64,000 nucleotides of DNA from Trebouxia sp. TZW2008 (taxonomy: Eukaryota > Chlorophyta > Trebouxiophyceae > Trebouxiales > Trebouxiaceae): the NCBI GenBank assembly GCA_002118135.1, contig BDIU01000180.1, positions 120,350-184,349 of the forward strand, written 5' to 3'. The position numbers and the translations under genes are program-made. Shown here piece by piece: positions 10,721 to 59,037 of this stretch. The notes beneath the pieces were generated by a model, which saw only the letters and a program-made list of their open reading frames with translations, was not told where the DNA came from and made no database searches. The first letter of the stretch is position 1. Each line of letters starts with the position of its first letter.

Positions 10721-13700
10721 ATGAGCTCCAGCGATGACTCGTTGCCAGATTGGGTAGCAGAGCATCAGGCAAGAATTCGCGCCAAGAACATCCTACGTGA
10801 ATGTCGTGCACTTTGGCTGACAATCTGTTGCTGCAGTCACCATGGCTGCCAAGCCAGGCCCCAGCCAGCGACAGCTCGTCCTCAGACCCTGACAAAGACC
10901 AGCTTACAGGTGAGAAGCTGCTTATGCAAGATGTGTGACATGCACTGTATGTATCAATTTGTATCTCAGCAACAAGCTGTTTGCAGCTGTTGCTGAGCCT
11001 AGCCAGCATGCCCAGCGCCCACAGGGACCAGACTTGTCAGCTGTGGTGCCCAGTCCATCGGTCAAAAGAACAGCAGCTGCAGCTGCACTGGTGGCAGCAC
11101 CAGATTTGCCTGGACAGGTCAGACCAAATGTCCAACAAGTTGCAAAGGCATGCATAACCCCCTGCCGTGCATGCTGGGCATGCATAATGGCTTGGAAACA
11201 TGCCTTGTCCACATGCATCACAAATGTCATGGATGCTCTGACAACATGAGCCAAAGCTAATGCAATGCAATGCACTGCCGACGAGACTCTGCACGCAATG
11301 TCACGTCAGCAGAGACTGTCTGCATGCTCATGTGTAGCAACGTGCAGTCAGTGGCCACAACAAGTCAGCATTGCGCAGCTTTGGGACAGTCAAATGCGCA
11401 TACCTAGCTGGGGCTGCTGAGCTTGTTCGACATATGCTTTGAATGTACGACATGAATGAATGTTATGCAGATTCCAGTGCTGCTCCCAGAAAAGCTGAGC
11501 ATGACAAGATGCCTAATGGAAGTAGAAGATGGCACATCAACTGATTTAGCTGGAGATGCTGGAGCTGTGGGTAGATTTGGCATCATCAAAGCAGACAATC
11601 AACAGCGCGCTCAGCTTGATTTGAAAGGTTAGACCTGACATACACCGGCTTCTCTCTGCGTCAATCACCCAAAAAAAGTCATTATACTGAATTGTCTGCA
11701 CTCAGAGATACCCATGCAGTCAGAACGCAGTGACTGGTACCCAACTGCCTTGATAATGATAATCACTACACATTCCAGCATATACTGCTAGGTGTGTGGT
11801 GCACAAGTCCTATCTTGCCAGGCAGGCTTGTCTTTTGCCTTGTCCTTGCATTGAGAATGTCCTTAGATTGACTGTCCTCACAAGGAGAAGTTACTGTACA
11901 AGTGAAATCTGAAGCGGTTCATCGCAACTGCATCTGTGCTCAGCTGCTTTGAGCATGACATGTCACTGAGGAGTCAATGTTGATGTAGACTTCTAGTATG
12001 AGACCAAAACATTAACATCAACTCAATGCCTCCTGTCCTGTTGCAAAGGAGAATCAATGATACCGTCGTCTGTTGCTCCCTGCAATGTGTGCATGCATGA
12101 CCTGAGTAAAAGAGCAATGCTTGAGCGGGTGCCTCAGGTGAAATGTTTGGCATGGTCACTGTGCCTTGCGCCCCGACTCTATGCCTCACAAACATATGCC
12201 AGACAGTTCAAACCCAGTCATGATACACGCTTGAGTGTGTGCTTCAGGTTGAATTGTATGGTATGGTCAATATGCCTTGCGCCTCCACGCTGTGCGTCAT
12301 GAACATACGTCAGACAGCTCAAGCCCAGTCATGTTACAGTGATTTCTCTTTGTGACGATGTTGGGCACCAAGAAAGTCATCCTTATACTGAGTTGTCCTT
12401 ACTTGAAGCCACCATTGCAGTCAGAACGCAGTGCTTGGATCCCAGCTGCGTTATCGGCACAACGAGAATGTCCTTACACAAAGTGTCCTTACGAAATGAA
12501 GTTTCTGTACATGCCTGAATGTGTGCCTCAGGTGAAATGTATGGCATGGTCACTGTGCCTTGCACGTCCACGCTGTGCGTCATGAACATACGTCAGACAG
12601 AGGCAAAAGTGGAGGCCATCATGTGTGAGTTTGTACAGTTGAGGCAAGAAGCGGGGCAAGGAGGAACTCAGGTCAGCTTTCTGGCTTAGGCATCAGCATA
12701 ACAGTGTTGCTTTTTATGCATAGCATGACAGCTGTGCTTTGTGCCTCCATATAAACTGCACAAGTGCTAGCTTTGGGTAAGTTTGATACCAGTGGGGTGC
12801 AGATGTAGCCTTGCCTTTCTCTGTGTGTCCAAAGCTTGCAGCAGCACTTCTTTGATGCGTTACAAGCCTGTTGGCTGTCACAATGAAATACGCTTTCAGA
12901 GTGTGAGCCCCAAACAACAAGCTCTCTGTGGGCTTGTCGGACCTTGCAGATGTGATTGCATCCCCTGAATGGCTATCTGCAATGTTGTGTGTTTCAGCAT
13001 GCTCTGAGGCATGTGGACAACTTGCATCAACAATATGCGTGAGCTGATTGTCAGATTTGCTGTTCCCACTGTGCAAAGTCATGCTCTCACAGTCAGGATA
13101 GTGGAGGCATTGTGAAAGCAAGTCCCTTCGCTTGTGACCTGACAGCCTGATACCCTTCATCTGAGCTTATCAGGTCATTGTACCTGGGAACATGCCAAGA
13201 GTGGCCACTATTGCGTATGCCTGCAACATATTTCTCCCCAGGATGAGCGTGTAGCATCAGCAATGGCATCAGCGCCAAGACCCATTTGATTGAGCGAGTC
13301 TTTGTTTGCAGGAGCATGAGAATACGCACTTGTTTGGGGATGATGATGAAAACTATCAAGAGAACGCTACAGCTGGACCCTCAGCGGCTGCAGGTCAGTC
13401 AGTCATGTCTTGTTTTCATGACGGTGATGTGACAGGCCCTGGCAGCATTTGCTTTGCAACAACTACACCATGTTCATGTACCCTACAGCCTCTGACAGGC
13501 TTGCATTGAGGCAGCTGATTGCGCCTGTATACACAAAACGCTGGGGTTCAAAGCCTGCCTAGCAGACAATTTTATGAGTTCGAGTGAGTGAGTGAATGAA
13601 TGAAAGAAAATGAATGAATGAATGAATGAATGAATGAATGAATGAATGAATGCATGAATGAATGAATGCATGAATGAATGCACGAATGAGTGTACCCTAC

Positions 13701-17889: not shown

Positions 17890-19294
17890 ATGTATTCGAG
17901 GTGTACGCACCTACAGCTGATTTGGTTGGCACTGTTGATCACCGGCAAACCAGATTCTGCCTTCTCCCAAGCCTTAACAACCTTGTCTGGCCCGAAACTC
18001 AGCGATGAGAGAATCACTTTCCAAACGAACTTCGGAGACATAGAAATGGCGTTGTACCCTGAAGTATGTGCGTCTTTACCTCAGACATGTTAGACGCTCC
18101 TGTGTGATGCCTGACAGCATTGCCTGATCAATGCAGGTGGCTCCAGTGACTGCAGCGCACATACTGAAACTAGCAAAGCTGGGAGGATATAACAGCAATC
18201 ACTTCTTTCGTGTGGACAAGGGGTTTGTTGCGCAAACTGCTAGCATTGCAGGCGGCAGGCTTGCACCACTTGACAGGAAACAGCAGGTGCTCAATCACAA
18301 TCACTATGCAAAATGCTGCATTGCTGAATCGCTAAGTAACACTTACAATCAGCAGGTGCTGTATCGCAATCATTTTGCAACATGCTGCATTGCTAGGCCA
18401 AAATCATGCACATACAATCAGCAGGTTGTATGCACAAACGCTCACTGCCGAACACAGCAACCATGCGATTGCGTTGGCTGTGATAGGCTAATGTGTCGCT
18501 GCAGCATGCCTGGCACTGTCTGCGCACCTTTACAGAGAAGACAACTAGTTGACTGGTGTTTCAAGCGGAACTCCATGCCTTCCTGCCAAAGTGTAAAGGG
18601 AATGCTTGAGCTAAGTGAGGGAACTCTGCACGAACAAAGAACAAAAGCGACACACTGCACCATTGTGAAAGATGTATATTGTGCAGGAGGAAGAGGACAA
18701 AACAGTTCCTCTTGAGGTGCATCAACATGTCAAGCACGACAAGAGGGGCATTCTATCCATGGGCCGATTAGACGATCCTCACAGTGGAGGCTCATCATTC
18801 TCCATTTTACTTGGCCCTGCACCACATCTGGACATGCACTATGGCATTTTTGGGTACGTAATGCAGCTCGCACTGCACTGACTGCATTCATTCACTCGTT
18901 CTATCAATCAATCATGCATTCAAAACGCGTGCTAGACTGGCTCAGCAGGCCCAGCTAGGTATGTACTGGAGCGATCAACTGTCTCCAGTCAATTTGATTC
19001 TGTGCTAACCTGCACCACTTAGTGATTTGACCTGGCAATACTTGCTGCAGGGAAGTCACTGGAGGCTTTGAAACACTGACCAAACTTGAGGAGGTAGAGA
19101 CGATCAAAGAGGGCATTTTTGTCATGCCAAAGCAACGTATCCATATATTGTCTACGTATGTCCACTCCAGCACAGGCTCTGTACGCAATCAGGATGCAGT
19201 GTCAATATGCCAGCATGAACTTTCAGACCTACAGGAGCGATTCGACGCTCAGTCAAAGCATGTGGAGCACATACGGGCTGGAAGGTTGCCGTAA
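17890..19294 (+). CDS. CYP23-like cyclophilin (peptidyl-prolyl isomerase), secretory
   Basis: Cyclophilin-type protein of the plant CYP23 group, probably in the ER lumen or secreted. Exons 17890..18063, 18137..18286, 18687..18853, 19051..19294 give 244 residues. A signal peptide (LQLIWLALLI) comes first, then ITFQTNFGDIEMALYPEVAP, GGYNSNHFFRVDKGFVAQTA, GILSMGRLDDPHSGGSSFSI, APHLDMHYGIFG and EGIFVMPKQRIHIL, all hallmarks of CYP23 and in the right order. A C-terminal helical tail (LSDLQERFDAQSKHVEHI) is also typical. The fold residues of the active-site arginine (FFRV) are kept. Intron 2 contains a partial tandem duplication. Confidence 0.9.
18284..18430 (+). repeat. Threefold tandem repeat at the exon 2 donor of the CYP23-like gene
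   Basis: The donor context CAGCAGGTGCTCAATC and about 65 following bases (ending ACTTACAATCAGCAGGTGCT) recur at 18352 and partially at 18419. These are three copies of an exon-intron junction type CAGCAG|GT in tandem. Confidence 0.75.
18880..19020 (+). repeat. Family B intronic repeat
   Basis: ATTC/ATCA-rich lead-in followed by GTGCTAGACTGGCTCAGCAG, GCCCAGCTAGGTATGTACTG and CAACTGTCTCC. It fills most of intron 3 of the CYP23-like gene. Confidence 0.8.
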
Positions 19295-32420: not shown

Positions 32421-35400
32421 ATGGCGTCTGGGTTGAGCAGTTCTCACCCACAGCCTGCAATACAGCAAGTGCAGCGACCACTTCACGATCCGCAGCAGGC
32501 ATCATCTGCACCCGAACCTGCCTCAACACAGCCTAGCAATGCCCCTTCTAGCACAGCGAATGCCTTCAGCAAGAGCGACTTGCAAGGGCAGCACCCTCAA
32601 CCGCAGCACCCGCCTGTGGTTCCACAGCCTAGCGCGTCAATACAAGGACATTTTGATCTCAAACTTGCCTCACAAAGCCAAAGCTCTCTGCCAAAGCAAG
32701 ATGCACTGCAGCGACAAGCACAGCTGAAGGCACTGCCAAAGAAGGAGAAAGTACAGTGCCTGTTCTGCACAAAGCCTGCCAGACTCACGTAAGCTAATGT
32801 TGCACTCAATGTGTTTAGCACTTTCCCGCTGGTTTGCCACGCGGTCGCAGCAGTCACTTATCCAGGCCATGTGCCCTAAAAATCTGCTTTTCTGCAGGTG
32901 TCCTCACAAACTTTGTAAGAAGTGCTGCAATGAGCGACACCCAAATGACTGCAAAGCCCATGACTCAGGTGCCGTAATAGATCAACAAGATATCAGCAGT
33001 TTGTGTGTGACAGGCCAGACATGTAATCATGCACAATGTGACCGGCGACTGATGTACAGAAATGCTGCCTTTCGAAAAGGACCATGCAAGCTGCAGCTCT
33101 GTTGCAATTATTGTACTAGCAGCAAGATTGATTGCCATGAAGTTGTAATGCAGTGTGTCTCATCTGCATTCATTCATTCGTTGTCTTTCAAAGCGCATGC
33201 TAGACAGGCTCAGTGGCCCAGCTAGGTATGTATTGCTACCAATTTGGTCCTGTGCCAGCCTAAGTTGTCAAACAGTCATCTGCAATGCTTGACTATCATA
33301 TGAGCGCCTGCTCGGCGTCTGCGCTGGTAAGAAATCTGCTGTTTGATTGTACAGGCACAGACAAAGAGAGGTCCAAGCCCGCCAAGACATCCACATTTGC
33401 CATGCCAACAGCTCCCAGCATGCCTTTGACAGCAACCCCAAAGCCCTGGTTGGGTCTTGCTGAGACTAGCCAACCAGGTACAATAGTTTGTCTTTCTAAG
33501 GATGCTCAACACAAGAGAATTCTCGATGCACGGACAATGCAAGTGGGAACACATCACTGCATTCTGGCTGCAGTGGTGTCTCTGAGTAAGCACAATTTAG
33601 CGTACGGACAATTCGTGGTAACCAATGCAGTTGCTATAGAAAGACAATGCTGTCATGATGACAATGGTCTTTGCACTTTCTAGCACATGATCTAGGTATG
33701 TGTGTGTGTCTCAAGTCTTGTCTGATTGTCTGACAACAAGGTGCATTTGGTAACATCACAGTTTGGCTGTTGTAAGTGTGCCACATGCCACTTGTGGCGC
33801 ACCAGTTTCTTCATTTGTCCATGTCAGTCGTGATAGATCAGTTATTGCAGCAGCTCAGACAAATGCACCAGCCTTGCACGCACCCTTCAAGGCGTCAGGG
33901 TAGCTCCACAACATTGTACAGCTTCCAGTCTGGTGTGAATTGCTCTATGTTGCGACACTTGCATAGCACATGCGTCATTCTCAGGGCAGCAACAGGCTTC
34001 AGGTGAGCACAGGACAGAATTGGATACAGCCAGTTGATTGCTCCAGTATATACCTAGCTAGGCCTGCTGAGCCTCCAGCATGTACCTAGCTGGGCCTACT
34101 GAGCCTGTCTAGCATGCTATTTTTGTGAACGGAAAATTTGACAGGCTTGATGCTACTTGCTGAGCAATTCTTGTGCTGTGCAGAGGCGCCAGTCCTCAGA
34201 GGCATCGCACCTGGCATGAACACTGTCAACTTATCAGAAGTAGCCCGCACATACAACCAGGTACAGTAACTCCTCCATGTAAGGACTCTTGCTGCAAGGA
34301 CATTCTCACATTGTACGGACGAGACAATTGGGAGCCAATCACTGCATCTTGACTGCACTGGTATCTCTCACTGAGGACAACTTGGTCTAAGCCTAGTTAT
34401 GTTGATGAGTAATTCACATGGCATGAAAAGAAAATTCTGTATAAGAATGTATACAGTATACAAAAATATTGTATATATTGTGCTCTCCATCAATCCATCA
34501 GTCTGAGGGCCGAATGCACCATCCCAGACATGCTGTCACTTGTCCTGGACAGAGGCATGTGAGTCTGCTGAGTGCTGTTGATGGCTTGAATACACTGAAG
34601 ACAAGCAATGCATTTGCGCGTCAAAGCTTGAGCGTCATTCGCAATTTCTTGGAGGCAAATGCTGATCAGCTGCTTTTGAATGCCAGATACATTCACCTAC
34701 TGCTGTCAAGCCAGGAAGTCCAATGAATCACATCTGCCTTTCTATCCCAAGCTGTGAATTACATAAATCAACAAAAAGTACCTTTTCTGCATGTATAATG
34801 ATGTCCCACGACATACAACACAACAGATCTACGCCTCAGCAAATAAGTTGAGTTGCGCAGATCTGGAACCATCTGCAGCTTCCTGCATGTTTGTACATTA
34901 GCCTCTCTCTGTAAGGACACCCGATGTAAGGACATTCTCAGTGTATGGACAGTGCATTGTCAACCAATCACTGCATTCTGACTGCAGTGACATTTCTGAG
35001 TAAGGACAATTTGATATAAGGACAATATCTTTTGGGAATCAAAGCAACCATTACAAAGAGAAGTCACTGTACGTGCATGAAAGCAAGAGAAGTTGCTGTC
35101 TGGTGCATGAAAGCAGTCATTACAAAGAGAAGTCACTGTGCTGTTCAAAGCGCAAGCTGCTGCATTGCAGGACATGCAGGAGCTGGCTCACTGGCAGATT
35201 GCAGCGTATGAGCAGCTTGACCAGCAGCAACATGAGGCTGCTGAAGAGGCCATGCAGCGCTACATCTTTAATGGCAACCTTCTCAAGGAGCTCTGTCAAG
35301 GCACAGCAATCAGTGCCATGAGTCTGCCGGCCGCAAGTATGTGCATCTTCAGCTGATGCATGTGTCAGAAGTATGTCAAGGCATAGCATGCAGTGACATG

Positions 35401-36654
35401 AATCTGCACGTTTAAAGTGTGTCAAGGCACAGCATGCAGTGACATGAATTTGTCAGCCGAAAGTATGTCAAGGCACAGCATGCAGTGCCATGAATCTGCC
35501 AGCCAAAAGTATGTCAAGGCACAGTATGCAGTGCCATGAATTTGCGTGTCAAAAGTATATTGAGGCACAGCATGCCCTGCCATGATGTTGCCAGCCAATT
35601 GTATGTGTATCCTGTATGTCCCTCTGCTGCGCAACACATCAAGGGGTCTATCTATTCAAAAGCGCATGCTTATTATGGTCAAACGCCTAACATTAGGGTG
35701 TGCTTGGATCTTTTCTGCTTGCACTGCAGTCAATATGCTTGCACAGCCCTACTACCCAGTCGATGGCACAAAGTTTGTATGCTGCTCACAAAGCTTGCTC
35801 TGCAAATTCCTCAGTCTGCTTTGTAGTGATTCAATACGCAAACGCTATGCATTCTTCAGTCTGCCTTACAGTGTATTCTTTCTTGTCACAGGGACCTCTT
35901 GGCATGCGCGCCTCCAGCAACCAGAGCTTGCAGGAGCCCATCAAGAGGTTCGTCCCTTGTGCTCCAGTACAGCAACTTCTCTTTATCAAGACTGCTTTGG
36001 TTATCAAGAAAAATCTCCTTGTCCATGTTGTCCTTATTGAGAGGTGCCGTCGCAGTCATATTACAACAATTGGGTTTCTAATTGTATTGTCCTCACTTAT
36101 AGAATGTCCTTAGATTGAGTGTTCATTCAATGAAAAGTCACTGTACGTCAATACTGATCAACAGCATGATCTCAGCTCTGCCAAAAGTACACATGATGTG
36201 TGCATGGTGGTGATTCTCAAGCTGATTTGCTGCCAGAACCCAGTTGCTTGTAGGCTTGGCAAAGTTTCCACCCCAAAAATTGCACTGACCTGAGAAAAGA
36301 CAACACAATGGAAAGTCGATGCCGATGTGCGTCATCACAGGAGCCTCTGTCTGTAAAGACAGCCTGGGAACTGACCTGACATACACCACATCCCATGTGT
36401 TTGGCGTGCAGGACGTTTCAATGCAGGATGTCCATCAGCAGCAGAGCTTGGTGGACGACAGTGCATTGCAGGACACACAATCAGACAGACTCACTGAGCT
36501 CACAGCAAATGCAGCAAAGCTCAAGGGGTTGGCGTCAAAACCACTCAGGAATCAAGACGAGGCGTTACAGTCTGCTGCAGCAGTAGACATGGTGACAGAT
36601 GAAGGACAGCATAATTTTGGCATGACATCAAGCAGGTCCTGCATTGTCTTATGA
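32421..36654 (+). CDS. Unrecognised protein: Pro/Gln-rich N-terminus, Cys/His zinc cluster, C-terminal CaaX box
   Basis: No known family recognised. Exons 32421..32788, 32898..32968, 33355..33477, 34184..34260, 35171..35336, 35892..35947, 36412..36654 close in phase to 367 residues. Residues 1-105 are Pro/Gln/Ser-rich. A zinc-binding cluster follows: CLFCTKPARL then CPHKLCKKCCNERHPNDCKA. An optional exon 33014..33154 (47 codons, phase-neutral) would insert a second cluster (TCNHAQCDRR ... CKLQLCCNYC). Downstream come GIAPGMNTVNLSEVARTYNQ and a helix LAHWQIAAYEQLDQQQHEAA. The last residues SRSCIVL end in CIVL, a CaaX box predicted for geranylgeranylation because of the final Leu. The donors of exons 3 and 4 are formed by a family A element, and exon 5's 3' end is amplified in the intron. 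Gene unity rests on phase agreement only. Confidence 0.6.
33165..33265 (+). repeat. Family B intronic repeat
   Basis: CATTCATTCATTCG followed by AAGCGCATGCTAGACAGGCT and GCCCAGCTAGGTATGTATTG, then TTTGGTCCTGTGCCAGCCT, in intron 2 of the zinc-cluster gene. Confidence 0.85.
33479..33640 (-). mobile_element. Family A element whose end forms a splice donor
   Basis: Exon 3 ends CCAG and the intron begins G|TACAATAGTTTGTCTTT, a worn form of the family terminal repeat. The body (CACTGCATTCTGGCTGCAGTG, GAGTAAGCACAATTT) is the family A core in reverse. Confidence 0.65.
34010..34125 (-). repeat. Family B repeat, partly doubled (reverse)
   Basis: TTGATTGCTCCAGTATATAC, ACCTAGCTAGGCCTGCTGAG and a second ACCTAGCTGGGCCTACTGAG with CTGTCTAGCATGC, in intron 3 of the zinc-cluster gene. 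Confidence 0.8.
34262..34385 (-). mobile_element. Family A element whose end forms a splice donor
   Basis: Exon 4 ends AACCAG; the intron starts G|TACAGTAACTCCTCCATG, a near-perfect family terminal repeat. The core CAATCACTGCATCTTGACTG follows. The distal end is lost, so the copy is truncated. Confidence 0.8.
34900..35071 (-). mobile_element. Family A element
   Basis: Runs from CCTCTCTCTGTAAGGACACC through AATCACTGCATTCTGACTG and TAAGGACAATTTG to ACAAAGAGAAGTCACTGTA. About 70 bases beyond it repeat its right end (GAGAAGTTGCTGTCTG, CAAAGAGAAGTCACTGTG), up to the exon 5 acceptor at 35170. Confidence 0.82.
35292..35612 (+). repeat. Six-copy array of the 3' end of exon 5
   Basis: Units of about 45-60 bases built on GTCAAGGCACAGCATGCAGTGCCATGA-like sequence plus the donor AAAGTATGT follow the true exon end (GTCAAGGCACAGCAATCAGT ... 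CGCAA|GTATG). Each copy thus contains an exon tail and a donor-like site. Confidence 0.88.
35968..36145 (+). mobile_element. Family A element, complete
   Basis: Left end TACAGCAACTTCTCTTTA, right end TGAAAAGTCACTGTA, internal TGTCCTTATTGAGAGG and AGAATGTCCTTAGATTGAGT. About 178 bp, starting 20 bases after the exon 6 donor of the zinc-cluster gene. Confidence 0.82.
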
Positions 36655-37333
36655 AGACACAAGACTACTGCGCCGTTTTTATTCCTCAGGACTCTCTGCC
36701 GTGTTTGGTGCTGTCGAGTTGAGATTCATGTCCGTTCTGCTTGTCACTGTTCTGTGCTGTAGACAGTCTCCCCACTCGAGCCGATGTACCCTCGAATGTG
36801 CCAAGGCTACATCAGGCCGCCTTTGGGATTTTGTTTCAAATCTGTACTTCCGTGCTTGGATGTCTGAGAGTGGTAATGACAAACAATCAGACTTTCAAAT
36901 GATGCAGCAGGCCCAGAGAACAGTTTGGTTCGCAGGTACTAGGGACTGGAACTTACAGACACATGCTTGATCACAATGTCATATATAGGGTCGAGCATAA
37001 CGAGCAGCGTTCAGAGGCATTTTCCGCATGCGCAAGCAGCTTGTGAGCACTGCTACTGGCTTGTATGGTACAACACGTTCTGCAACTATTGAACTACAGC
37101 CAAGCAGCTACACACTCTGAAGTTGTGTGCAGTGCACTGACTACTTTCAAACTGCCCAAACTTTGAGTGCGCATGCCGTAGATGGCCGAGCAGCACTACC
37201 AACGAGTGAAGATGATTCAACGATTGAAAGCTGCATTCAAAGCACACACAAGCAGCCGCATTCAACCCTTCACCACTTCTCAGCATCACACACACAAGGT
37301 CAAAACACACAAAAGGCGGGACGGGCTGTGCAG
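36655..37333. other. Convergent 3' intergenic region
   Basis: Between the stops of the zinc-cluster gene and dihydrodipicolinate synthase; no supported gene. Confidence 0.5.
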
Positions 37334-39480
37334 CTAATACTTGCTGACAATTTTGAAGTCCTCATCATTGAGGACCTGGACATCTTTGCAGCCAGGAATG
37401 TGCTCCTGAACCTTTTGCAGCAACTTTGCGCCCTCCTCGCGCTTTTCTCTGTTCAAAGGGACATAAGGCAAGCGGAAAACAGGCTTAACGAGGCCGCACA
37501 TTGCCAAGGCTGTATTCAAGGCCACAGGGTTAGGTTCGCAGAATAGCCATGCCATCAACTCTTGCAGGCTCTGATTGAGTTCAGGGTCTGCTTGCTTCAT
37601 GAGCCGTGAGAACAGCCCGGGGATGATGTTGCTTGTGACTGATATGACACCCTGCAGGACAAAGCAACGGTTTTCTAGCATGATACAATGTAGCTTCACT
37701 TCCGTACAACACGATGACATTGAGCTCAGTCCTGACATATCAGGTCACAGAAAGCGGCCAACTTAAAGTTGATCTGCACTTGATGGCATGGCTATGCCGC
37801 TGTGTGAGTTTGAATGTTGTTTGGGCAAGTCAAGGCTTCAAGCCCTCCAGGCCAAGCTAGAAAGATCTGGAATGGCATCGTCTTGCTTTTGGCAAGTTGA
37901 ATACCAGGCATCCTTACTGCGGCGCTCAACACAAGCTTGCCTGGCCTGACAGCACTTGAGCCAGACACATGTAACACTTTTGCTAACGTGTGAGTCAATG
38001 ACGATGAGTGTTGCATCAAATCAGTATCAGTATCATGACTTTTGTCAAGTAAGTTATCAGCTCTGAAGAGCTCCTGGGCAGCATAACCATGGTGATGTGT
38101 GCTTTGTCAAACAGTTATGGTTGTCGTTATCATGAATATTATCAAGTTCATTTCCAAGTCTGATGAGCTACCTGGCCGCCATGATTATGCCGCCCATCAT
38201 GCGCTTCATCATCATTACCACTCCAGCACATAATGCCTTGGTCGGCATAGCTCTGTATTCGCTGATTGCCTGTGCACTCTTTCACGCCAAGCCAATTTGC
38301 ATGATGCGATAGCCGCTTCACAACATGGTCTGGCACATCTTGCCCTGCATGTCAATCCTTTTCAACCACAAACTGTGTATCAATGTGGAATCAATCAAAC
38401 AGTCAGTCAATCAATTAATCAATCAAATTTGCAGTCCAGAATAGGGAGCCAGATGTGACTCATTGGACAAGTGTGACTTCAATCAAAGGCAACTAATCAG
38501 AACTTGCCTGCCAGAAAAGGCAAATGAAATAAGTGGGTACAGTTGAGCGTGATGGCGATGCAGCCAAAACGGCAGCACTTTTACTGCACATGCTTCAACA
38601 GACTCCCTTCGCGCATGATGCAGAAGACAAAGAAGTGAGCAGCAACACATACATGCAAGCTGGCAGACATGATTGGGATGTATTTCACCTGTTCTGCTTG
38701 GAACATTGTATATGATTGTGGGGCCTTCGTGCAGGACTGCACTGAAATGAGCCATCAAACCGTCCAGGGATGTCTTGCCATAGTATGGATTTATCTGCAG
38801 AGCAGCATGCATGCCCACAGCAAAGCCCTGCTCTGTTGCATGAAGCGCTTCACGCGTGGAATTACTGCCCGTGTTGCCAATGACTTGCAGCTGCTTTCCA
38901 AAGCTGTTCACGGTATGTGCTATGAGCATGACATGTTCATCCCAGCTCATCAGCTGCCCCTCTCCTGCAATGTGCAGAGGCAAGATCATTCAAACTCGTT
39001 CTGCTTTGCCAGTGCTCAGCGGCCAGCAACCATTCTAAAAAGGGAAGGCAGAGTGAAGCTACTGCTAAGCCAATGTTTGGCCGTTGGTGTCCAAAGCTTG
39101 CCTGTAGTGCCACCAACGATGAGCCCCTCAACGCCATTTTCAATCTGTCGTTGGACGTGAGCATCGTACGCCCTGAGATCAAACTTGCCATCTTCTCGAT
39201 ATGGCGTCTTGATAGCTGTGATCAACCTGGTTTTCTTCAGTAGTTCCACAGATTCCTGCGTCTGTGTCAGTGTCACCGGAGCCAAGGTCTCAGCAACAGC
39301 TGCTGTCTGTACATTGGTCCATCTGCAGAGGACCCTACGCCTGAAGTCCTTAGTCAACGGTCTAGCACCTCTTGTGGTAGCAACTCTGGAGCACTGGTGG
39401 AGGCGATGCTGCACAGGTGCCGCTGCCGAGTTGCGCGAATGCAGCAGTTGCCCTGAGATGTGTGACTGCGTGATGCTCAT
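37334..39480 (-). CDS. dapA: 4-hydroxy-tetrahydrodipicolinate synthase (DHDPS), probably plastid
   Basis: First committed step of lysine synthesis: condenses pyruvate and aspartate semialdehyde. Exons in coding order 39102..39480, 38689..38964, 38172..38344, 37334..37651 join in phase to 381 residues. A ~70-residue basic, Ser/Arg-rich leader precedes [20 protein letters not shown]. Signatures are [57 protein letters not shown] (catalytic Tyr), [10 protein letters not shown] (Schiff-base Lys), SGNDDEAHD and [13 protein letters not shown]. These match plant DHDPS. The start is the first ATG (39480). Intron 1 has a GC donor (ACAG|GCAAGC), forced by the invariant GTTGEGQ across the junction. Plastid location is inferred from the leader and plant homologues. 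Confidence 0.95.
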
Positions 39481-40032
39481 GCCTGGGCTGGCCGCCTTCA
39501 ACGATCACGCATGCACAGCGACTGTAAGCCCAGTCGATGTGCCGCAGGTACCTTCAGGCAGGTCCTCGAGCTCCGTGTCTTCTGCACGCACCGCGTCATG
39601 TTCTACCTGATATTCTTGCAAGAATTGGCATGGAAGGTTGCTGCATGCTTTGCCCACAGACAGCAAAGGATTGGACATATGCAAATGCGCAAATCTGTGT
39701 GTTGGCACAGCATGCACGCACTTTTCTCACACCAGCTCTTACTGTTCTGTCATGACCAACACTTTGCTGAGCCATTTTCACAAACTCATCATGGCATGCT
39801 CAGCAGGCGTTGCATGACAGCACATTGGTGTTAGTATAATAGTTGTTGCACAAACATTGCATGTCAGTCAGGAAGTTGGCCTGCCGCCCTGCTATTGCAG
39901 GCCAGGTAAAATTGCATGTTAAGCGAAATGTTGAATATTTGGCTCTGCTTACCACACATCGGCGTCTTGGACGCTAGCAGAGTACATGAGAAGCAGTGTG
40001 GTCCGGCATTTCAGCGGGTGTATTGACTGCTT
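39481..40032. promoter_or_regulatory. Shared divergent upstream region of DHDPS and UBA1
   Basis: About 550 bases between the divergent ATGs; no specific motif recognised. Confidence 0.4.
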
Positions 40033-43000
40033 ATGTCGAAGCGCAGCCTGAGTGCTGCAGATTCTCCATCCGCCTCCAAGAAAGCCAAAATGAGTTGCGT
40101 AGAAGCCAACGGTGTTCACAAAACAGCATCAAAAGGAGACATCGACGAAGATCTTCACAGCAGACAGCTTGCCGTATATGGTCGCGACTCCATGCGCCGA
40201 CTGGCTGCATCACAAGTCTTGATATTGGGTGTGACGGGTCTAGGAGTCGAAGTTGGTACGGTTGATCAAAGCTCATAAGTGTTGATTGCCGTGGTCTTCA
40301 GCTTACATAGCGCCTTTTGACGCCCTGCGCCGGTTTGCTGCAGCCAAGAATGTCATCCTGGCCGGTGTGAAAGCTGTTGTTCTGCATGACACGGCGGACG
40401 CTGAACTTTCAGACCTTTCTGCGCAATTCTACTTGACAGAGGCAGATGTCGGTAAAAACCGAGCAGCAGCCTGTAAGGACAAGCTACAAGAGCTGAATAC
40501 TGCTGTAGCAGTGTCATCGTCATCTGCAGAACTCAACGAGCAATTCATCAGCCAGTTTCAGGTGAGGTTGCAATGTGGTGCTTCTGGAAGCCAGGTCAGA
40601 AGCTCTCTCAACTCCAGCATGTAAGCTTGTATTGCGACTGCAGGTGGTGGTTTGCACAAACACGCTCATCAAAGAATCCATATCTGTAGATGAGATCTGC
40701 CACAAACACAACATAGGCTTCATCAAAGCAGACATCTGCGGTGTTTTTGCCAATGTTTTCTGTGACTTTGGGAAGGGCTTCCATGTGCTGGATGTTGACG
40801 GTATGTAATGATGCTATGAAGCTTGAGAGCACATACACTTGCACTTGCAATGTGCTGCAAAACGTCCAGTTGTCATTTGCAACTTTCCTTTGTGCAACAG
40901 GTGAGGAGCCTGCAACTGGCATCGTGGCATCCATCATTCCTGGCAACCCTACAATAGTGACCTGCGTCGATGATGAGAGAATGGACTTCCAGGTTGGTTG
41001 CTTCTGCCTGTCAATGTTTCAAACCCTTGAAATGTCTCAATGCCTTCAGGAGTGTCAATGCCTTCAAATGTCTCAAATTTTGCAAATATCTTACGGTTCC
41101 CACATGTCTTGAGGCCTTCCAATGACCCAAGGCCTTCAAATGTGCAAGGCCAGCATGTTTTTGACACCTTCAAACATCTCAAGATTTTCAAATGTCTCAA
41201 GGCCTGCAGAGGTCTTGAGGCTTTCAAACGCCTTGCGGCCTTCAAATGCCTTGAGTCCTTTAAATGTCTCAATGCCTTCAAACGTCTTAAGGTTTTCAAA
41301 TCTCTCAAGGCCTTCAAACGCCTTGAGGCCTTCAAACTTCCAGCCCTTGTGGTCTTGACCTCTACATGATCCTTGATGGCATATGTGACAATCTGCAGGA
41401 TGGACAGCTGGTAACATTCGCTGAGGTAGATGGCATGCCCACTCTGAATGACAAAAACCCCCGTCGCATCAAAAATGTCAAGGTGAGTGGTGCATCTATG
41501 TCAACACCTCCTTGCTTTGATGCCTGTTGTCAACTCTGCCTTGCCTGTCCTGCGTCTCAGAGCCATTTCAGCCCAGAACGACCTGGCTTGTCTTTGTTGG
41601 AACTAGCTCTGTATCACAGAGCAATGCGACGCATACTTTGCGATTCTTGTGCATTTAGCTGGTCATATGGGCAAGGTTGTCATTGGTGCCTGAGACTCAC
41701 TCACACTCTCACAAATGAATTCACATTCTCTGTTGCGCCTCTCCTTACTTACTCGCCCTGTCACTCATTTGCTCGGACGTATGTGCTATAAAGTGTCAAG
41801 ACATCAACCCTCACAAGCTGGATGCCCAAGCAGGTCCAGGCGCAAATGTTGAGTGTGCATTGCGCTGGTCATGTGGGCAAGGCTGTCTTTGGTCTCTGGA
41901 AGTCACTGGCTCATAGGTTTGTTCACCTACTGAATCATGCCCTGCCTTGTTCACCAAGTCACTCACTCACTCGTTCGCCCACTTGACTTGACTTTTGTGC
42001 CCCAAAGTGTCTAAGGCATCAATTCTCACAAGCTGGCTGCTCGAGCAGGTTCAGGCGCATACATTTGAGCTGGAGGATGATACTAGCAGCTATGGCAACT
42101 ACATCAAGGGCGGAATTGTCACGGAGCACAAAGAGCCAAAAACGCTGGATTTCAAGCCATTAGCACAGGCCCTTGATGATCCTGGGGAGTTCTTGCTCAG
42201 TGATTTTGCCAAAATGGAGCGCCCAGGTGTTCTGCACCTTGGTTTCCAGGCGTTGAATGCTTTCCAGGTACAGCACTTGCTCGCCATCATGGCTGCTTTG
42301 TTTCACCAATCAAGATGTCCTTACATCAAGCTGTCCTTACTCAGAGGGTATACAACAGTCAGACTGCAGTGATTGGTTCTCAAATGCCTTGTCCTTACAT
42401 ACAGAATGTCCTACATTCTTCTATATTATGTACCCTTCCAGAGGAGGTACTGCATGCAAACAGCTTGCAGTTTGTATTCAGTATGCAGTCAGAAATGAGG
42501 CAGAACTTGCCTTAGCATGCAGGCAAGTCATTCATTTTACAAAGTGCAATCTTTGAGGATTTTGAGATGTTGGCCCTGTGCACTCACATGGATGTGACTG
42601 TTTGCTTGTGATGTTGTCTACAGCCAAATTTGCCTGCTCACATTGCTCAGCCTTGGGTTGCAACTCCTGCTGGGCCTCACAGCAACCCTGCTTGCTCATG
42701 TGTCTGTAATCTGCTGAGCTTTGTACACATTTGTCATGCTTGCCTGCTTACTTCAAGCATCTGAAATGCAACAGAGTCTGAATGGAAGGGCTGTGAAGGT
42801 ATAGTAAACAGTAATTTCTCTTCACATTGGGTACCAAGAAACTTGTTCTCATACCAAACCGTTTCTACTCAGAGCTAGCACTGCAGTCAGAATGCAGTGA
42901 TTGGGCTACAACTGCCTTATCCTTACATCAAGATTGTCCGTTTATCGTGTGTCCTTGTAACAAATGTAACTGTAAACGTGCATGCTGCAGGAGGAAAATG

Positions 43001-46000
43001 GACGCCGGCCACAGCCATATGACAGAGATGATGCTGCAAGCCTGATTCAGCATGCACAGAGAATCAATGAGCATGCTAACAACAAAGTTGATGTGGATGA
43101 GGTATGCGTGTTGTTTTGATGTTGATTTTGAATGCATGGCATGTTCTGTTAGCATGCACACAGGCTATGCAGTCCATCAAGAAAGCAATCACTGATGCAT
43201 CAGTAAAGCAGTGAAGTATCAATGATGCATTCAGAAAGCAGTGATGCGTCTTCAAAGCAAATGATGCATCAGCTCTGTCACGGAGCCCTGATGTATCAGT
43301 ACAGCAATGATCCTCTTGTTGCCTGGCCTCTGCATGGTGCGGCACATTCTTGCTGTACTTTGTGGCATTTTAAATTTGGCAGGGCTTCATCTCTAGTTTT
43401 GCCAGAGTTCCCTGCTGGTGCAGCTATTCACAGGGGTCTGTGCAGGACATGCCGCGCAGGATATTTTACACGTCATCTGCTTTTAAGATATCAGATGGCT
43501 TATAATATGCTGTGTAAGCTATCATATGCATCATCTGCAAAAAGGGCAGCAGAAGCTGCCGTACACATCAATTGCAGACAACATTCTTATGTGTGAAGAA
43601 TGTGCTGCAGAAGCCTTTCTACACTTTGGTGGCAGGCCACCATCTTGGTTGCGCAAGTTGTCAAATACATCGTCTGCCAACAGCAATCTTGCTCTTGTGT
43701 ATAGGATGTGTTGCGCAAGCTGTCATATACATCATCTGCGGAGATCAGTCCCATGGCAGCCATGTTTGGAGGTGTGGTTGGGCAGGAGGTTATGAAGGCT
43801 GCCAGTGGCAAATTTCATCCCTTGTTCCAGTTCTTCTACTTTGACTCAATTGAGTCTCTTCCAGATGATGATCTGACGCCTGAGCAGGTTGCCCCGCAGG
43901 TAAACAGTATTTTCTCTTTGAAGCGATTGCCTCAATCGATTGTCCTCATATCTCCAGCAAGGAAACTGTCCTGAAATGGAGTCGTCCTTACTCAGAGGTA
44001 CCACTGCAGTCAGAATGCAGTGATCGTTTTCTAATTTTGCTGTCCTCACATCAAGAATGGCACTATGTTGAGTGTCTTTCCAGAAAAGGAATTACTGTAG
44101 ACTGCAAACGTTCAGTACAGCCACACCCTCAGCTTATGTACGCGATCTTGGATCATGAGCGTTGCTATGCTGTACTGTTCGTTGTAGCAGTAAACTGTAC
44201 ATTAATTTCATGCATTGTGATGATGAGCTGTACACGCATTGCGTGGGTGGCCAATCTGTAAGCAGGCTAGGCATGTTGGAGGCCGAGCTGCCACAGAGCA
44301 TCGTGCTCATGCATTGCTCAGCATTTGCTGATTGGTGCTGTCCTGCTTTACAGGGCAGTTGTCATGATGTACAAGTTTGTGCTCATGCATTGCTCAGCAG
44401 TCGCTGCCTGCTGTTGTCCTGTGTTACCTGGGAATTGTCCTGACGCAGGAGTCATACAACAGTTGTCAAGGCAGAAGATGGCGAGCGCCAGTGGATAGCT
44501 TGCCAGCCAGCCATCCACCAGAATGTGGCAGATGCCACCCTCTAGGCTGGTCCATCAAAACTGCATGCTATTTCTTAAGGCTTTTTAACAGTTGCTGACT
44601 GCTGCTATCCTGCGCTGCAGGGTGATCGCTATGATGCGCAAAGAGCTGTGTTTGGCAGCAAGCTTCAGGAACAGATCCAGAGCCTGCAGGTGGGTTGCAA
44701 TGGTTTTAGGTTCAGGCTTTCAAAGCCTCACATGTTAGTTGGTCTCTCCTCAACATGCCTAATGCTGCATCCGTGCTTTTGCGTTGTACTGCGCTGCTGT
44801 GCGCTACGCTGCATGAATCATCAGCGTGGACTGGCATCACTTGTGGCAACGCTGACATGTTGGCATAGTGTTGCTGGCATTGCATGCATTCAGACTTTCA
44901 GGCTTCTTGCTATCTCAGCAAAGCTGTGTATACAACAGGAAAGTGACTGCACGTTGTGTGCAGGTGTTCTTAGTGGGAGCTGGAGCGCTTGGCTGCGAAT
45001 TCATCAAGAACTTTGCATTAATGGGCTTAGGTGTTGGCTCCTCAGGACAGGTTACAGTGACAGATGATGATGTCATTGAGAAGAGCAACCTCAGTAGACA
45101 GTTCCTTTTTAGGGACTGGGATATTGGCAGGTAAGCTTGCTGCCAGGATTGGGTCAAACACCTTGTGCTTCACAGAGGGGTTGTCTAGTCACAACCAGGT
45201 CTCTCCTGTTGTGTGTGAATTTCATGTGCATTGTGCCCTGTTGTCGGTCACACCAGCAGCACTGTGTCAAAATGTATGCATCAGCATGCAATCAAGCTGG
45301 TCTCTCCAGCAATTGCTTGATAAGCTATGCCCTGCTGCTTTTGAAGGGCACGCTTGCTCACCACACTGCAATGATTTGACTCTTTGTTTGACTCCCGCCG
45401 CACATGTGCTGTGTGTCTTTTGGGTGCCGCTGATAAATAAACTGTTATGCAATGATTGAGAGTGTACATCACGCTATGCAGTGCAAAGTCCACAGCAGCA
45501 GCCAAAGCTGCTAAGAGCATCAACAAGGCCCTCAAGGTCAATGCCCTTCAAAACCGTGTGTCTCCAGCCACAGAAGATGTCTTCAATGACAAGTTCTGGG
45601 GGTCCTTGAACCTAATCGTCAATGCTCTGGACAATGTCAACGCTCGGCTATATGTGGACTCACGCTGTGTCTATTTTGGCAAGCCCCTGTTGGAATCTGG
45701 CACCCTGGGCCCCAAATGCAATACACAAGTGGTCATGCCCAACATGACTGAGAACTACGGTGGGTCGCAATGTGCTTCATGCAAAGCTGTGCTCAGTTGT
45801 ATGCTCAAGAGCTGCAGCACTTCAATGCAGTCCTCACGGCATGACAAACATCTTGTCCATGGCTTGCGGGTTTGGCAGAAGCATGCATCATTCTGTTGAT
45901 TCAACCGCTCCAGTCTGCTGCCAGTGTTACGATCAAGACTCATTTTGAGGCCTGCTGTAGCTTTGTGCGTGCACGCATGTCGCCAACAAGGCATATCACT

Positions 46001-54209: not shown

Positions 54210-57200
54210 TCAAGCAGCCATGGCTGTGAAGTTTGGAGACATGAAATTATCCCAGAAACAGTCTTTGTCAAATTCAATCATGTCATGACCAACTGGTAGC
54301 CCACAACACTGAACAAAGGGTCGCAGTGGTACAAGGCGCCAGTCTATCTTTGGGCTAGCCTGTACACTTGCCCAGCTAGCAAAGGGTAGCCCTTTCACAG
54401 ATGCATTACTGTACAGATCCCTTGCATCTATTGCCTCGTAAGCTTGCCGAACGCCAGGGTCAACAACTATCTTGTGATATCCCATACGCAGGAAGTCATT
54501 GCAAACAAGACTGCATTCTGATGCCGCACACTCCCCTTCTTTGTGCATCCTGCAAGACACTGCAATGATGACGATGCTGTGAAAGCACAGAGCAGACAAC
54601 AGCTTGATGCTCAGCACTCGTGGTCGGCAACTACAGCACAATTTCAATCATTGCAGCTTGGTACAGATGCAGCAGCCTCAGCAGCGACAACTGTAGTGAC
54701 TATAGTCTATGTGAGATTGTGCAGCATATGCATCAGCTGAGGTGTGAGTGTTAGCGCAGATACTCTCATGCCCACGTGTCCTTTGAGTCTCAAAGCAGCA
54801 CAGATGACGCTGAGTGCAACCAGCAAGAATGGCATGTAGCTGGCCTACCTGACACGCAAGTTCTGCTGGCTGAAAGGAGTGGCGTTCATCACAACAAGGC
54901 CATTCCAGCAGCACTTGACTGGGAAAGGCAACCCAGCAGCAATGCGTGTCAGAGAGTAGGGATCAGTGACGTAAGGAGGGTTTTTCAACAGTAAGTTTCC
55001 ATCTGAGTCTCTGCAGCATGCATCAGCCATTAAACTGAGAATTCCCATGTGCTAACCTATGCAGAAACAATGAGTCACAATCTATGCCAAAGCAAGCTGT
55101 GCAACCGCAACGAAAAGAGCAGTGATGCAGCAACTGCAGCACGGATTCAATCACCCAGATAAAAACAAAAATGCTGTGCTCATCAGCTTTCATGCTTCAT
55201 ACATTTGCTCTTGGACTGATCAGTTGTTCAGGTCTTGTTTGATGCTTTGCAGTGAACTGTTGGCAAGACACAGTCAGCAATGTTCAGTCTAACAACAGCT
55301 GTCCCTTGTGAGCATGCATGACTGACCTGGCAACCCATGTGTCATAAAACCCCATGTCAGAAACAGCTTGAAATGCTGCCTGAATAGACGGGTCAAAGCG
55401 CCAGTGTTTTGTGATGAGACCTGATCTGCCCAGGAAGCGACCAAGCGCTTGGGGAACATGGTACTTTCGCCACAGGTACTTTGCAAACTCAGGTCTTTGC
55501 ACCTGCACAAGCAGCCTACATTGAGCACTCATGCTAGACAGGCACAGCGGACCCAGCTAGGTACATACTGGAGCAATTGCTATTTCCAACCATTTTGGTC
55601 ATGTCTACAAGCAGCACTCTTTGCCATGCTGATCAGTATCTGCCAGATCTTCAAAACACAGAGCATGCCAAAACAGCGTCTCTTACATGATCCGCATACA
55701 ATATTACAAGGAACCAGCATGCCACTGGCAATGACATCAACATGCGGTCTTCCCCATCACAGGCAAGACGTGGAAACACGCTGACAGCTGCAGTGCTTGC
55801 AGTCGGCAACTTTTGACAGCACAGATGCTGCAGCTGCAGCAATAGCAGCAGCCCAAGATGCTATCAAACTCTGCACCAGATTGCCACATTCTGTCACAAT
55901 TCACTTTGGCTTTTGCTAGTGTCTGCAGGCATTGTCTTGCCCAAGATGTAAAAGCTGCTGCATGGGCAATGCCATGCAGATGAAAACAACGCTTACAAAC
56001 TTGAGAGAAAATCATGGCAATGATGACAGGCAGAACCATAGCTGCTGGGCACCCTGATTCCCGACACAGTTTATTGGCCTGTTCAGCTGAATATCAGCAG
56101 CAAATCAGGAGTCATGTGCAGCACTTGGAAAGCTCAATATGCCCTGCCCTGACGTAGCCCAAGCCTGAGTCAGGCATCAAGCATTGATGTGTGCAGCTGC
56201 TCATGCAACCTGCATGCGCTCGCCTTACATGCACATGTCTCTGCATGTTTTTAAGCTGTTCTCGTTGTGACCATACACTTATCTGATCAGAGTCATGAAT
56301 GCTACACGAGCTGAAAGTTTGTTTTCCAAAATAAGGAATTCTATGGGGGACACTTACCTTGCATGCAATGACCATGCAGCAACATAAAGCTTGCAAGGAG
56401 CTACTAGCACCAACAGTTGCTGCTCATGCACTCCTCTGTGTCATCACACAGAAGTGGTTATCACAAGAAGGCTACCTGGTGCGGGAGCCCGTCTAGCTTT
56501 GGTCGGTCAAAGTCCATTCCACACACCATGTCAGCATCATGCTGCAGCAACCTGCATCATTGCAGTGAACTCTCTTTACAAGGACACTCAATATGAGGAC
56601 ATTTTCAATGTATGGACTCGCAATGTTCTCTCAATGGACTCTCAATGTATGGACAAGGCAATCGGGAATTGATCACGACATTCTGACTGCACGAGTAAGT
56701 TTGAGTAAGGACAATTTCGTATAAGGACCTGTTTCTTGGTGACCAACGCGGTCTTTCTACAGAGAAAGTACTGCAAATGCCATTGTAGTAGGGTGCTTCA
56801 AATCTTTACATTGCATAGCTCTTTAGGCAGAAGTGCACGGCAGATGCCCATGCACTGCCTCTAGTGCAAGCTTGGGCATTTCATTGTTGCAGCCAATGGA
56901 AACAACAGCCAGCGGTTCATTATTGGTTTCTGCAGTGGCAGCTAGCAGAGCATGAAGCTAGCTGAATCAACAGCCAGAGCTTTGCATCTGTCTGAAGTGG
57001 TATTTGGCTTGAGCCTGAAACCGGCCGAATAACAGCCAGCTTGTTTGATGGGTTCACAAATCGCTGGCAGAGCAGACAGCTAGCAGACATGACAACCAGC
57101 ATTCCATGGTTGCTGTCTCAAGGAGCATATGGAAGAGCGTAAAGCTGGCTGGTGCAGCTAGCATTTTGCTCACTTTTATATCTCAAATGAACATATCCTG

Positions 57201-59037
57201 TGCACACAACTGCACATCATCTGCTGCTGCCTGTTTGATACCTCACCTGAACACATTCTGGGCACAGAAGTACACATCATTCAATACTGCCTTTTTTATA
57301 CCTCATCTGAACACACTCTGGGCACATAAGTACACATCATCTGATGCTGCCTGATTTATATCTCACCTGAACACATCCTGGGCACAGAAATAGACATCAT
57401 TGAGGAACACCACCTTGTGGGCGGGCCACATGACTTGTCTGGCAGGCTGAGCTGAGAAGACATCCCAGGACGCTAGGTCTCGAGCCATGTCACCTTTGCT
57501 GTTGGTAGACATGCCAGCTGCACTGAGCCAAAGCGGCTCCAGGGCGCGGTTTCGGGCTTGGGCCAGAAAGTCAATGCGGTCTTGTTCATCAGCACGCATC
57601 AGGCTGCCACCTTCAGCGCAGGGAGAGAATTATTACAGCGAGCTTTTTGTGACTCAGCAAATCTGTGCTCCTCAGGGTCCAGCGTGACTTCATTCAGTCA
57701 TTCAAAGGGCATGCTGGATAGGCTCAGCAAACCCAGCTAGGTATGTACCAGAGCGATCAACCGTCTCCTACTACTTTTGTGCTACGCTTCCTTCATTAGA
57801 GGTAGCAGAACTGTTAAGTTGGGCTGTCTGTTGCTTAGCATTTCAGGTTGTGACACTCTTGATCAGTGCGTTTGTAGTGTTTCAGCATGTGGACAGACAG
57901 GCTTGCTCTAAGACAGTTACTTGGTCACTATTTGTACCTCATGAGGCGTTTGAGCCTAACCAGCACGCATTTTGATAGGTGTAGATTGATGATAGTTGAG
58001 TGCTCCTGAAGGTCGAGTGCAAATGCTGCAGGGCAACAGTGACTTGATGCTGCTGCAATTAGGTCAAAGTTGCTGACTTGATAAACCTGCCGAGCACGCA
58101 TGTAAGCAATAATGACAGGTTATGAGAGCAGGGAGCGGCACTAAGCACAGGCATTGCCAGCTCACAACAAGACAAAGCTTTGCACACAATGACTCATGAG
58201 GGCAGAGGGCAGGTAAGCACGGGCATTGCCAGCTTGCAACAAGACAAAGCTTTGCATACAATTATGAGGGTAGGGAGAGCATACCAATAACAATTCTGTG
58301 TGGCACGCCTATGCAGACCATCAAATCTTGCAGAACCTCCAGCCAGGCACCTGAAACTTAACAGATGGAGTCAAAAGAACAGCTCGTGCTCTGCAAAAAG
58401 CCCGATATTGACAGCTTGGAAGCAACTGACCTGTACTGTCAATGCTGCCGCTCTCATATATGGACAAGAACGCACTGCCGAAGGGCACTGAGGTCAGGAA
58501 GTGCAGGATTTGCAGAGTGAAGTGGGGTAGCAGGTCCTCGTTGTTGTGCATGTTGGCAGCTAGCAGAACTTTCTGATTCTTGTTGAACACTTTGAGTGGC
58601 AGGCTGCTGTCCCACCCGCACGGCGCCACTGGCTTGGCCTTGGCAATTGCTGTTATGATCTGTGTAGCTTTTGAGACCATCAGAAGAAATTCTGGTGTGT
58701 GACTGGACAGGTCATCTGCATGCTGGCGCTGCGTGTTGTCTGCGCGCTGGGCGGCGAAACTTGCATGTTTGAAAGCTGAGCTGAGAGCTTGATGACCCAG
58801 ATGTCCAAGAGTAAGTTCACGTAGCTGCCTGCTGAGGAGTGCTGCTTGTGCTAGTGATGCATTCTGCTGTTGAAGCTGGAGAGTTTTGCTAGAGGGTGCT
58901 GGCAAAAGCAAGAGGCTGACGATGATGCTGAAAGCCAATAAACACAACACAGTGCGTGAACGGCTTTTAACGCTAGCAACAAAGTGCCTGACGGCAATCG
59001 TCCATGGCAGCCTGATGCAGCCTGCAGAGAGGCGCAT
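54210..59037 (-). CDS. GT69 glycosyltransferase, CAP59/CMT1-like (alpha-1,3-mannosyltransferase family)
   Basis: Exons in coding order 58431..59037, 58285..58350, 57367..57610, 56476..56551, 55327..55502, 54849..55010, 54210..54549 join in phase to 556 residues. Type II topology: a short cytoplasmic N-terminus and one anchor (VLCLLAFSIIVSLLLLP, about residues 35-55), so probably Golgi. Family blocks: KVLLAANMHNNEDLLPHF, VFLNDVYFCAQDVFRLLQHD, MVCGMDFDR (DxD-like), MGFYDTWVARD, PFPVKCCWNGLVVMNATPF and ASECSLVCNDFLRMGYHKIV. The family is best known from fungi (cryptococcal capsule genes). Relative to those I see an insert of ~45 residues before FYDTW. The acceptor sugar and linkage are not deducible. 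Start: first ATG before the anchor (MRLSAGCIRL). Confidence 0.85.
55525..55612 (+). repeat. Family B intronic repeat
   Basis: CACTCATGCTAGACAGGCAC, ACCCAGCTAGGTACATACTG and CCATTTTGGTCATGTC, in GT69 intron 4, about 25 bases from its acceptor. Confidence 0.75.
56562..56774 (-). mobile_element. Family A element near a splice acceptor
   Basis: GCAGTGAACTCTCTTTACAA at one end, AGAGAAAGTACTGCA at the other, with AAGGACACTCAATATGAGGA and GAGTAAGGACAATTTCG inside. In the gene's direction it ends about 10 bases before the acceptor of GT69 exon 4. Confidence 0.8.
57172..57366 (-). repeat. Three ~60 bp copies of the 3' end of GT69 exon 3 with its donor
   Basis: Read on the minus strand, each unit has AATGATGT.TACTTCTGTGCCC-like exon tail, GTGTTCAG and a GTGAGRTAT-like donor followed by ~20 intron bases. 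It repeats three times beyond the true donor at 57366. Confidence 0.9.
57690..57785 (+). repeat. Family B intronic repeat
   Basis: CATTCAGTCATTCAAAGGGC, ATGCTGGATAGGCTCAGCAA, ACCCAGCTAGGTATGTACC and CAACCGTCTCC, in GT69 intron 2. Confidence 0.8.
58095..58262. repeat. Tandem duplication in GT69 intron 2
   Basis: GGGCATTGCCAGCTTGCAAC / AGGCATTGCCAGCTCACAAC with AAGACAAAGCTTTGCA and GAGGGCAGAG.GCA form two ~75-base units near 58130-58205 and 58198-58275. Confidence 0.75.

Follow-up and report, generated by a model that had tools for sequence, protein, structure and literature searches.

In a 64,000-nucleotide stretch of contig BDIU01000180.1 from the green alga Trebouxia sp. TZW2008 (hereafter the window, numbered from its first letter), three predicted introns begin at the end of a miniature inverted-repeat transposable element (MITE), and we consider it very likely that this pogo-type MITE sometimes captures existing GTA donors by inserting at their TA. 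The element would insert at TA dinucleotides of non-coding DNA; where the target TA forms the second and third bases of an existing GTA-type 5′ splice site, insertion would give G/TA[CAGT...ACTG]TA. The duplicated TA would preserve GTA at the exon edge while the terminal repeat would give CAGT, so that the intron would retain a usable GTACAG donor and the element would form the first ~178 bases of an already existing intron. From the sequence, we infer that splicing uses these GTACAG donors at element ends. The MITE copies of the window and the features that bear on them are as follows:

33479..33654, minus strand: MITE copy, 135.5 bits; the intron predicted to start at 33478 has its donor at the element end, offset -1
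34262..34441, minus strand: MITE copy, 113.8 bits, model positions 2-178; its end is the predicted donor 34261, offset -1; codon score of the exon 3.6
42269..42454, plus strand: MITE copy; the donor of UBA1 intron 42268-42990 lies at the element end; TGC in the far flank is compatible with a former GTATGC donor
43903..44099, plus strand: MITE copy; begins 3 bases inside UBA1 intron 43900-44620, donor GTAAAC
42049..42267, plus strand: UBA1 exon ending ...ALNAFQ, immediately 5′ of the donor at the element end
42991..43101, plus strand: next UBA1 exon, EENGRRP...
42807..42974, plus strand: MITE copy, the second in UBA1 intron 42268-42990; acceptor 16 bases further on
34894..35071, minus strand: MITE copy, 151.5 bits, within intron 34261-35179
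35097..35140, minus strand: partial copy with one terminal repeat, 19.2 bits, model positions 2-44
35968..36145, plus strand: MITE copy; predicted donor 20 bases away
11641..11898, plus strand: MITE copy with internal insertion
12335..12509, plus strand: MITE copy with neighbouring empty site
12126..12325, plus strand: element-free tandem copy of the flanks of 12335-12509, with a single TA at 12224-12225; 84% identity over 183 aligned positions
56561..56775, minus strand: MITE copy with internal insertion; predicted acceptor 9 bases away

The predicted donors at 33478, 34261 and 42268 lie one base outside the element end, as an earlier note made from the letters of the window had described. 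At 43900, for which that note gave an offset of four bases inside, the donor lies 3 bases outside the element. The seed donors of the gene finder included these four, so that the donor calls of the window are not independent evidence on their own. Spliced at the predicted sites, the UBA1 protein aligns gap-free across the junctions at 42268 (Q/E) and 43900 (Q/G) with proteins of Trebouxia, Botryococcus, Elliptochloris and Citrus, the Elliptochloris protein departing by one residue some 10 positions ahead of the second junction. The best match of the spliced product is that of Trebouxia sp. C0004, at 80% identity, or 86% in the alignment. Gene model and UBA1 alignment thus agree with the earlier proposal that an element end serves as a 5′ splice site, as a prediction. 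The deposited C0004 protein (P0001) also carries ~37 extra residues at the position of window intron 40993-41398, which probably represent an intron retained in its gene model.

Genome-wide, the ends of the element were found in excess at AG/G, the enrichment at splice sites for which the earlier note had advised a search. Among 197 intact G-flanked ends, 38 were preceded by AG (AGG), 30 belonged to other GG, 30 to A-nonG and 99 to the remaining class, in comparison to 15.1, 22.9, 39.6 and 119.3 expected from non-exonic GTA sites (chi-square over the four classes, P = 3e-9). Given GG, a preceding A occurred in 38 of 68 ends versus 387 of 973 controls (P = 0.005). A mixture fit placed ~20% of these ends at donors (two-unit likelihood range roughly 8-32%), while predicted donors make up 2.6% of non-exonic GTA sites. 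Three of the 38 AGG ends were already in our sample, 20 were fetched (the first 20 of 35 by contig) and 15 were not. The fetched ends comprised 11 in plus and 9 in minus orientation, so that both orientations occur at AG/G sites, in line with the earlier note, and their 20 upstream flanks were mutually dissimilar.

The sequence upstream of these ends was then scored with a leave-one-locus-out codon score, using exon labels from a self-trained gene finder. Among the 20 fetched AGG ends, 12, 9, 6 and 1 exceeded scores of 4, 5, 6 and 8, respectively. At threshold 4, this corresponds to 12/20 with coding-like sequence upstream versus 25.7% of 370 non-exonic AGGTA sites (P = 0.001), and to 12 coding-positive AGG ends versus 1.96 expected. 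In the core-sampled loci outside the window, coding-positive AGG accounted for 5 of 58 G-flanked ends, with 1.1 expected (P = 0.005); when the window was included, 7 of 11 AGG ends scored above 4 (5/8 outside it). Two of the ten upstream-exon peptides tried received Pfam names, namely, Ceramidase_alk (locus L096) and Ligase_CoA (L104), the latter match breaking off where the exon does, at 78 of the profile's 128 positions.

Insertion at TA is supported by the element ends, since TA was present at 136 of 179 examined, and by related empty sites, which carry one TA in place of the two that flank the filled copies. This target duplication, which the earlier note had suggested looking for, was seen for window copy 12335-12509, L010 and L047. 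These three were retained from nine spanning empty-site matches belonging to seven copies; L073 was not clear, and the matches of L044, L039 and L094 start in the copy's own flank and were left out. At L047 an exon is duplicated, the empty duplicate reading GCAGAG/GTATGTAGAACGG and the filled one GCAGAG/GTA[element]TATGCAGAACGG. The empty duplicate is already a GTATGT donor, and the donor, and presumably the intron, thus predates the element. Donor-like far flanks (G at +5) were found in 4 of the 12 coding-upstream AGG copies, or 6 of 14 when L047 and window copy 42269 are added, in comparison to 15.5% of the flanks of other copies and 50% of GTA donors.

The family is, judging from its sequence features, a pogo-type (Tc1/mariner-related) non-autonomous element. 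An 842-bp copy (L109, contig 364), both ends of which match the MITE, contains a match to PF03221 (HTH_Tnp_Tc5), and its 177-residue frame passes the family cut-off. This domain has nine matches in the genome, two of them over the full query length (one with an internal stop), and eight proteins elsewhere match a domain of this type. Plant pogo-type MITEs are represented by Emigrant/Lemi. The algal element resembles pogo-type MITEs of the IS630-Tc1-mariner group in its TA duplication, its CAGT-starting ends and its larger copy with HTH_Tnp_Tc5, and differs from them in the excess of its ends at 5′ splice sites and in a DDE_1 search that returned 0 matches in the genome, the control genomes also giving 0. 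A DDE_3 search returned four partial matches on other contigs of the assembly (G000 C203, C294, C117 and C191), possibly from other Tc1/mariner elements. Green algae are among the reported hosts of pogo elements, which, apart from most Fot, make TA duplications (PMC7386202), and a separate survey found no Tc1/mariner elements in Chlorophyta (PMC7325037).

All ten copies listed in the earlier note were recovered with a profile built from these same copies, the training copies being included in the search, and a refined profile added a partial eleventh at ~35097-35140. Two copies extend further than first listed, 33479-33640 reaching ~33654 and 34262-34385 reaching ~34441. The 178-bp consensus, derived from 62 full copies, displays the imperfect inverted ends and the core described before; short, non-coding, with terminal inverted repeats and many copies, the family is indeed a MITE, that is, a non-autonomous inverted-repeat DNA transposon. 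Its exact core has 103+93 = 196 matches in the 68.5-Mb assembly and its exact 20-base terminal repeat 31+32, while the reversed controls gave 0 for both, showing that the family is not a product of chance. Eleven further, non-seed copies in 20 core-centred loci (196,192 bases) extrapolate to ~3,800 genome copies, a figure drawn from loci that were chosen for a copy and may be richer than average. L094 holds two elements back to back and L072 three nearby right ends with similar flanks, which suggests repeated insertion or duplication at existing copies. Within the window, which has a guanine-plus-cytosine content of 49%, a second dispersed repeat containing GGCTCAGCAGGCCCAGCTAGGTATGTACTGGAG occurs in both orientations at 2134-2242, 18909-19017 and 57691-57799 and in shorter copies. 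Intronic tandem repeats lie at 41007-41354 and 35366-35606 (18-base and 46-base periods, respectively), and the 46-base unit has a similar stretch in the adjacent exon at 35294-35342.

The position of the copies relative to predicted introns was also analysed, leaving out L001-L008, which lie within larger loci. A predicted donor exactly one base outside the element end was found in seven cases (the three in the window plus L020, L022, L032 and L033), whereas 1.6-2.2 of 107 copies would be expected under a TA-target null (P = 0.001-0.006). The midpoints of all 11 window copies fall within predicted introns, in line with the claim that all copies are intronic, yet this is nothing special, as the genome sample places 83 of its 107 copies in introns and none in exons. 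The remaining 24 are labelled intergenic, many of them in 1-kb loci without context. In the 21 loci of at least 6 kb, 42 of 42 copies are intronic, where 9.1 exonic ones were expected. In element-free intron coordinates, six copies lie 0-3 bases from a donor (0.7 expected), one of which (L020 290-911) involves a predicted exon overlapping the element; ten, including that of 43900, lie at 4-50 bases (3.9 expected), and one at 51-100 (3.9 expected). Over the same three distances from acceptors, 2, 6 and 1 copies were counted versus 0.2, 4.1 and 3.8 expected. These distance counts hint that the element prefers the edge between exon and intron. A bias of introners towards nucleosome linkers has been reported (PMC9860276), so that the donor excess might stem from linker DNA at the edges of exons.

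Several results weigh against the capture of existing donors. The codon threshold of 4 was singled out after thresholds 4, 5, 6 and 8 had been seen, and the coding excess depends on it, being absent at 8. The threshold was not exceeded by 8 of the 20 fetched AGG ends, nor by 4 of the 11 in the core-sampled loci and window, including the 34261 donor, whose exon reaches 3.6. An earlier version of the coding test, which used an order-4 model fitted to these loci, showed no excess (4/20 above 8, P = 0.53); it suffered from over-fitting and was set aside. The far flanks of the 12 coding-upstream copies gave P = 0.12 in a rank test, in which L020, L022, L032 and L033 were not scored. The gene finder was self-trained on the loci with the four window donors among its seeds, and of nine UBA1 exons it predicted eight correctly and the remaining one with an incorrect start, eight of these exons having seeded its training. 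Outside the window, 4 of 96 copies are donor-located versus 1.5-1.9 expected (P = 0.06-0.13); the window was picked for the pattern and thus overstates donor location. The empty DDE_1 search belongs with these points.

As a cause of the several-fold donor excess, it is possible, and we propose it only tentatively, that the family integrates preferentially at 5′ splice sites or at the edge between exon and intron, where the terminal CAGT and the duplicated TA would rebuild the donor and insertion would be nearly harmless. Our search of open-licence papers, covering titles and the starts of abstracts, returned no MITE that favours 5′ splice sites.

The main rival to such a preference is biased survival, in which insertion is random and donor-serving ends are spared deletion and decay because splicing needs them. 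This we regard as rather unlikely. Survival would fit the estimated excess being bigger for ends chosen by intact terminal repeats than for copies chosen by the core. It would also fit the metagenome protein P0129, the sole match that the window gene at 33.3-36.6 kb has in the database; the two share 80% identity across 59 residues, ending with SQP at the 33478 donor. Beyond SQP, P0129 reads GTVVSLSQGAQYKR and the read-through of the window GTIVCLSKDAQHKR, which suggests, from the two translations, that a related alga carries this insertion too and that a gene caller read through it; such a shared old insertion would mean that these copies can persist. In contrast, an excess of copies is also seen 4-50 bases into the intron, where the donor is independent of them. 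Furthermore, older, decayed insertions at other donors were rejected: of 304 other GTA/GTG donors scored as decayed ends, none exceeded 6 and 2 exceeded 2 (versus 0.25% of controls). The excess would appear to owe more to a preference for the exon-intron edge than to selective survival.

Plain chance, whereby a TA-targeting MITE meets the TA of donors at the expected rate and the window is an unusual cluster, is improbable. In its favour, 3 of 11 window copies are donor-located while the gene-finder count outside is not significant, and the codon test loses its excess at the highest threshold. Moreover, 46% of ends have G before TA, a preference that would by itself place GT at the element edge. 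The AG/G excess and the coding-positive AGG ends, both among the fetched ends and in the core-sampled loci, nevertheless stand against it.

The earlier note had presented the family as introner-like. Introners are described (PMC9860276) as having similarity close to both splice boundaries and as arising by insertion into exons, with inverted repeats and target duplication common among them. In this account the element would insert into exons and create introns, supplying one or both splice sites. The MITE does share with introners the nature of a short, non-autonomous inverted-repeat DNA transposon giving a splice site, and several introns have their predicted donor at its end, a location enriched genome-wide. 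Unlike introners, however, it lies within longer, apparently pre-existing introns and gives only the 5′ site. The modelled introns that hold a copy at or near the donor, seven in all (four in the window plus L020, L022 and L033), measure 428-1404 bp, the median of 391 predicted introns being 381. Seven short predicted introns are mostly element, and the one nearest on both sides (L050) still leaves 29 and 34 bases to the splice sites.

At the far end of the element, the consensus reads ACTGTA, without AG. None of the 42 intronic copies in loci of at least 6 kb has both splice sites at the element ends, and of 436 predicted acceptors, 3 are in contact with a called element. In the ~150 bases past the far end, coding-like sequence following a possible acceptor was found at threshold 4 in 1 of 29 donor-located or AG/G copies (L104, 4.5), which is less than the 30% observed at 400 random intron points. 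L033 has an acceptor-like TGCAG/G exactly at its far end followed by 42 open codons, but this candidate stretch scores 1.4. The empty L047 duplicate, the one empty counterpart found for a donor-located copy and the sole case on which the question of insertion into an exon rests, already has its donor. With long introns, coding-like sequence past the far end in 1 of 29 copies and this pre-existing donor, the introner claim was not upheld, and we consider the creation of introns by this element highly improbable.

Two further systems invite comparison. As in [D1,2] stwintrons (PMC12403724), the insert parts the first donor base from the remainder; unlike in these, the MITE consensus has no AG at the junction, and the element could thus not be spliced alone to restore the outer donor. 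Amoebophrya introner elements (PMC7789003) similarly combine inverted repeats with short direct repeats at intron edges. Their repeats pair both ends of one intron with mostly non-canonical splice sites, whereas the MITE sits at one intron end and its donor is GT.

Similarity to an element at a donor is no evidence of intron birth, for which a comparison with empty sites is needed. If insertion does favour donors, the element would have a working 5′ splice site and would tolerate the most dangerous spot of a gene, lacking only a 3′ site. The family would then stand midway from a common intronic MITE to an introner, and would be a case of a DNA transposon nearing the introner way of life.

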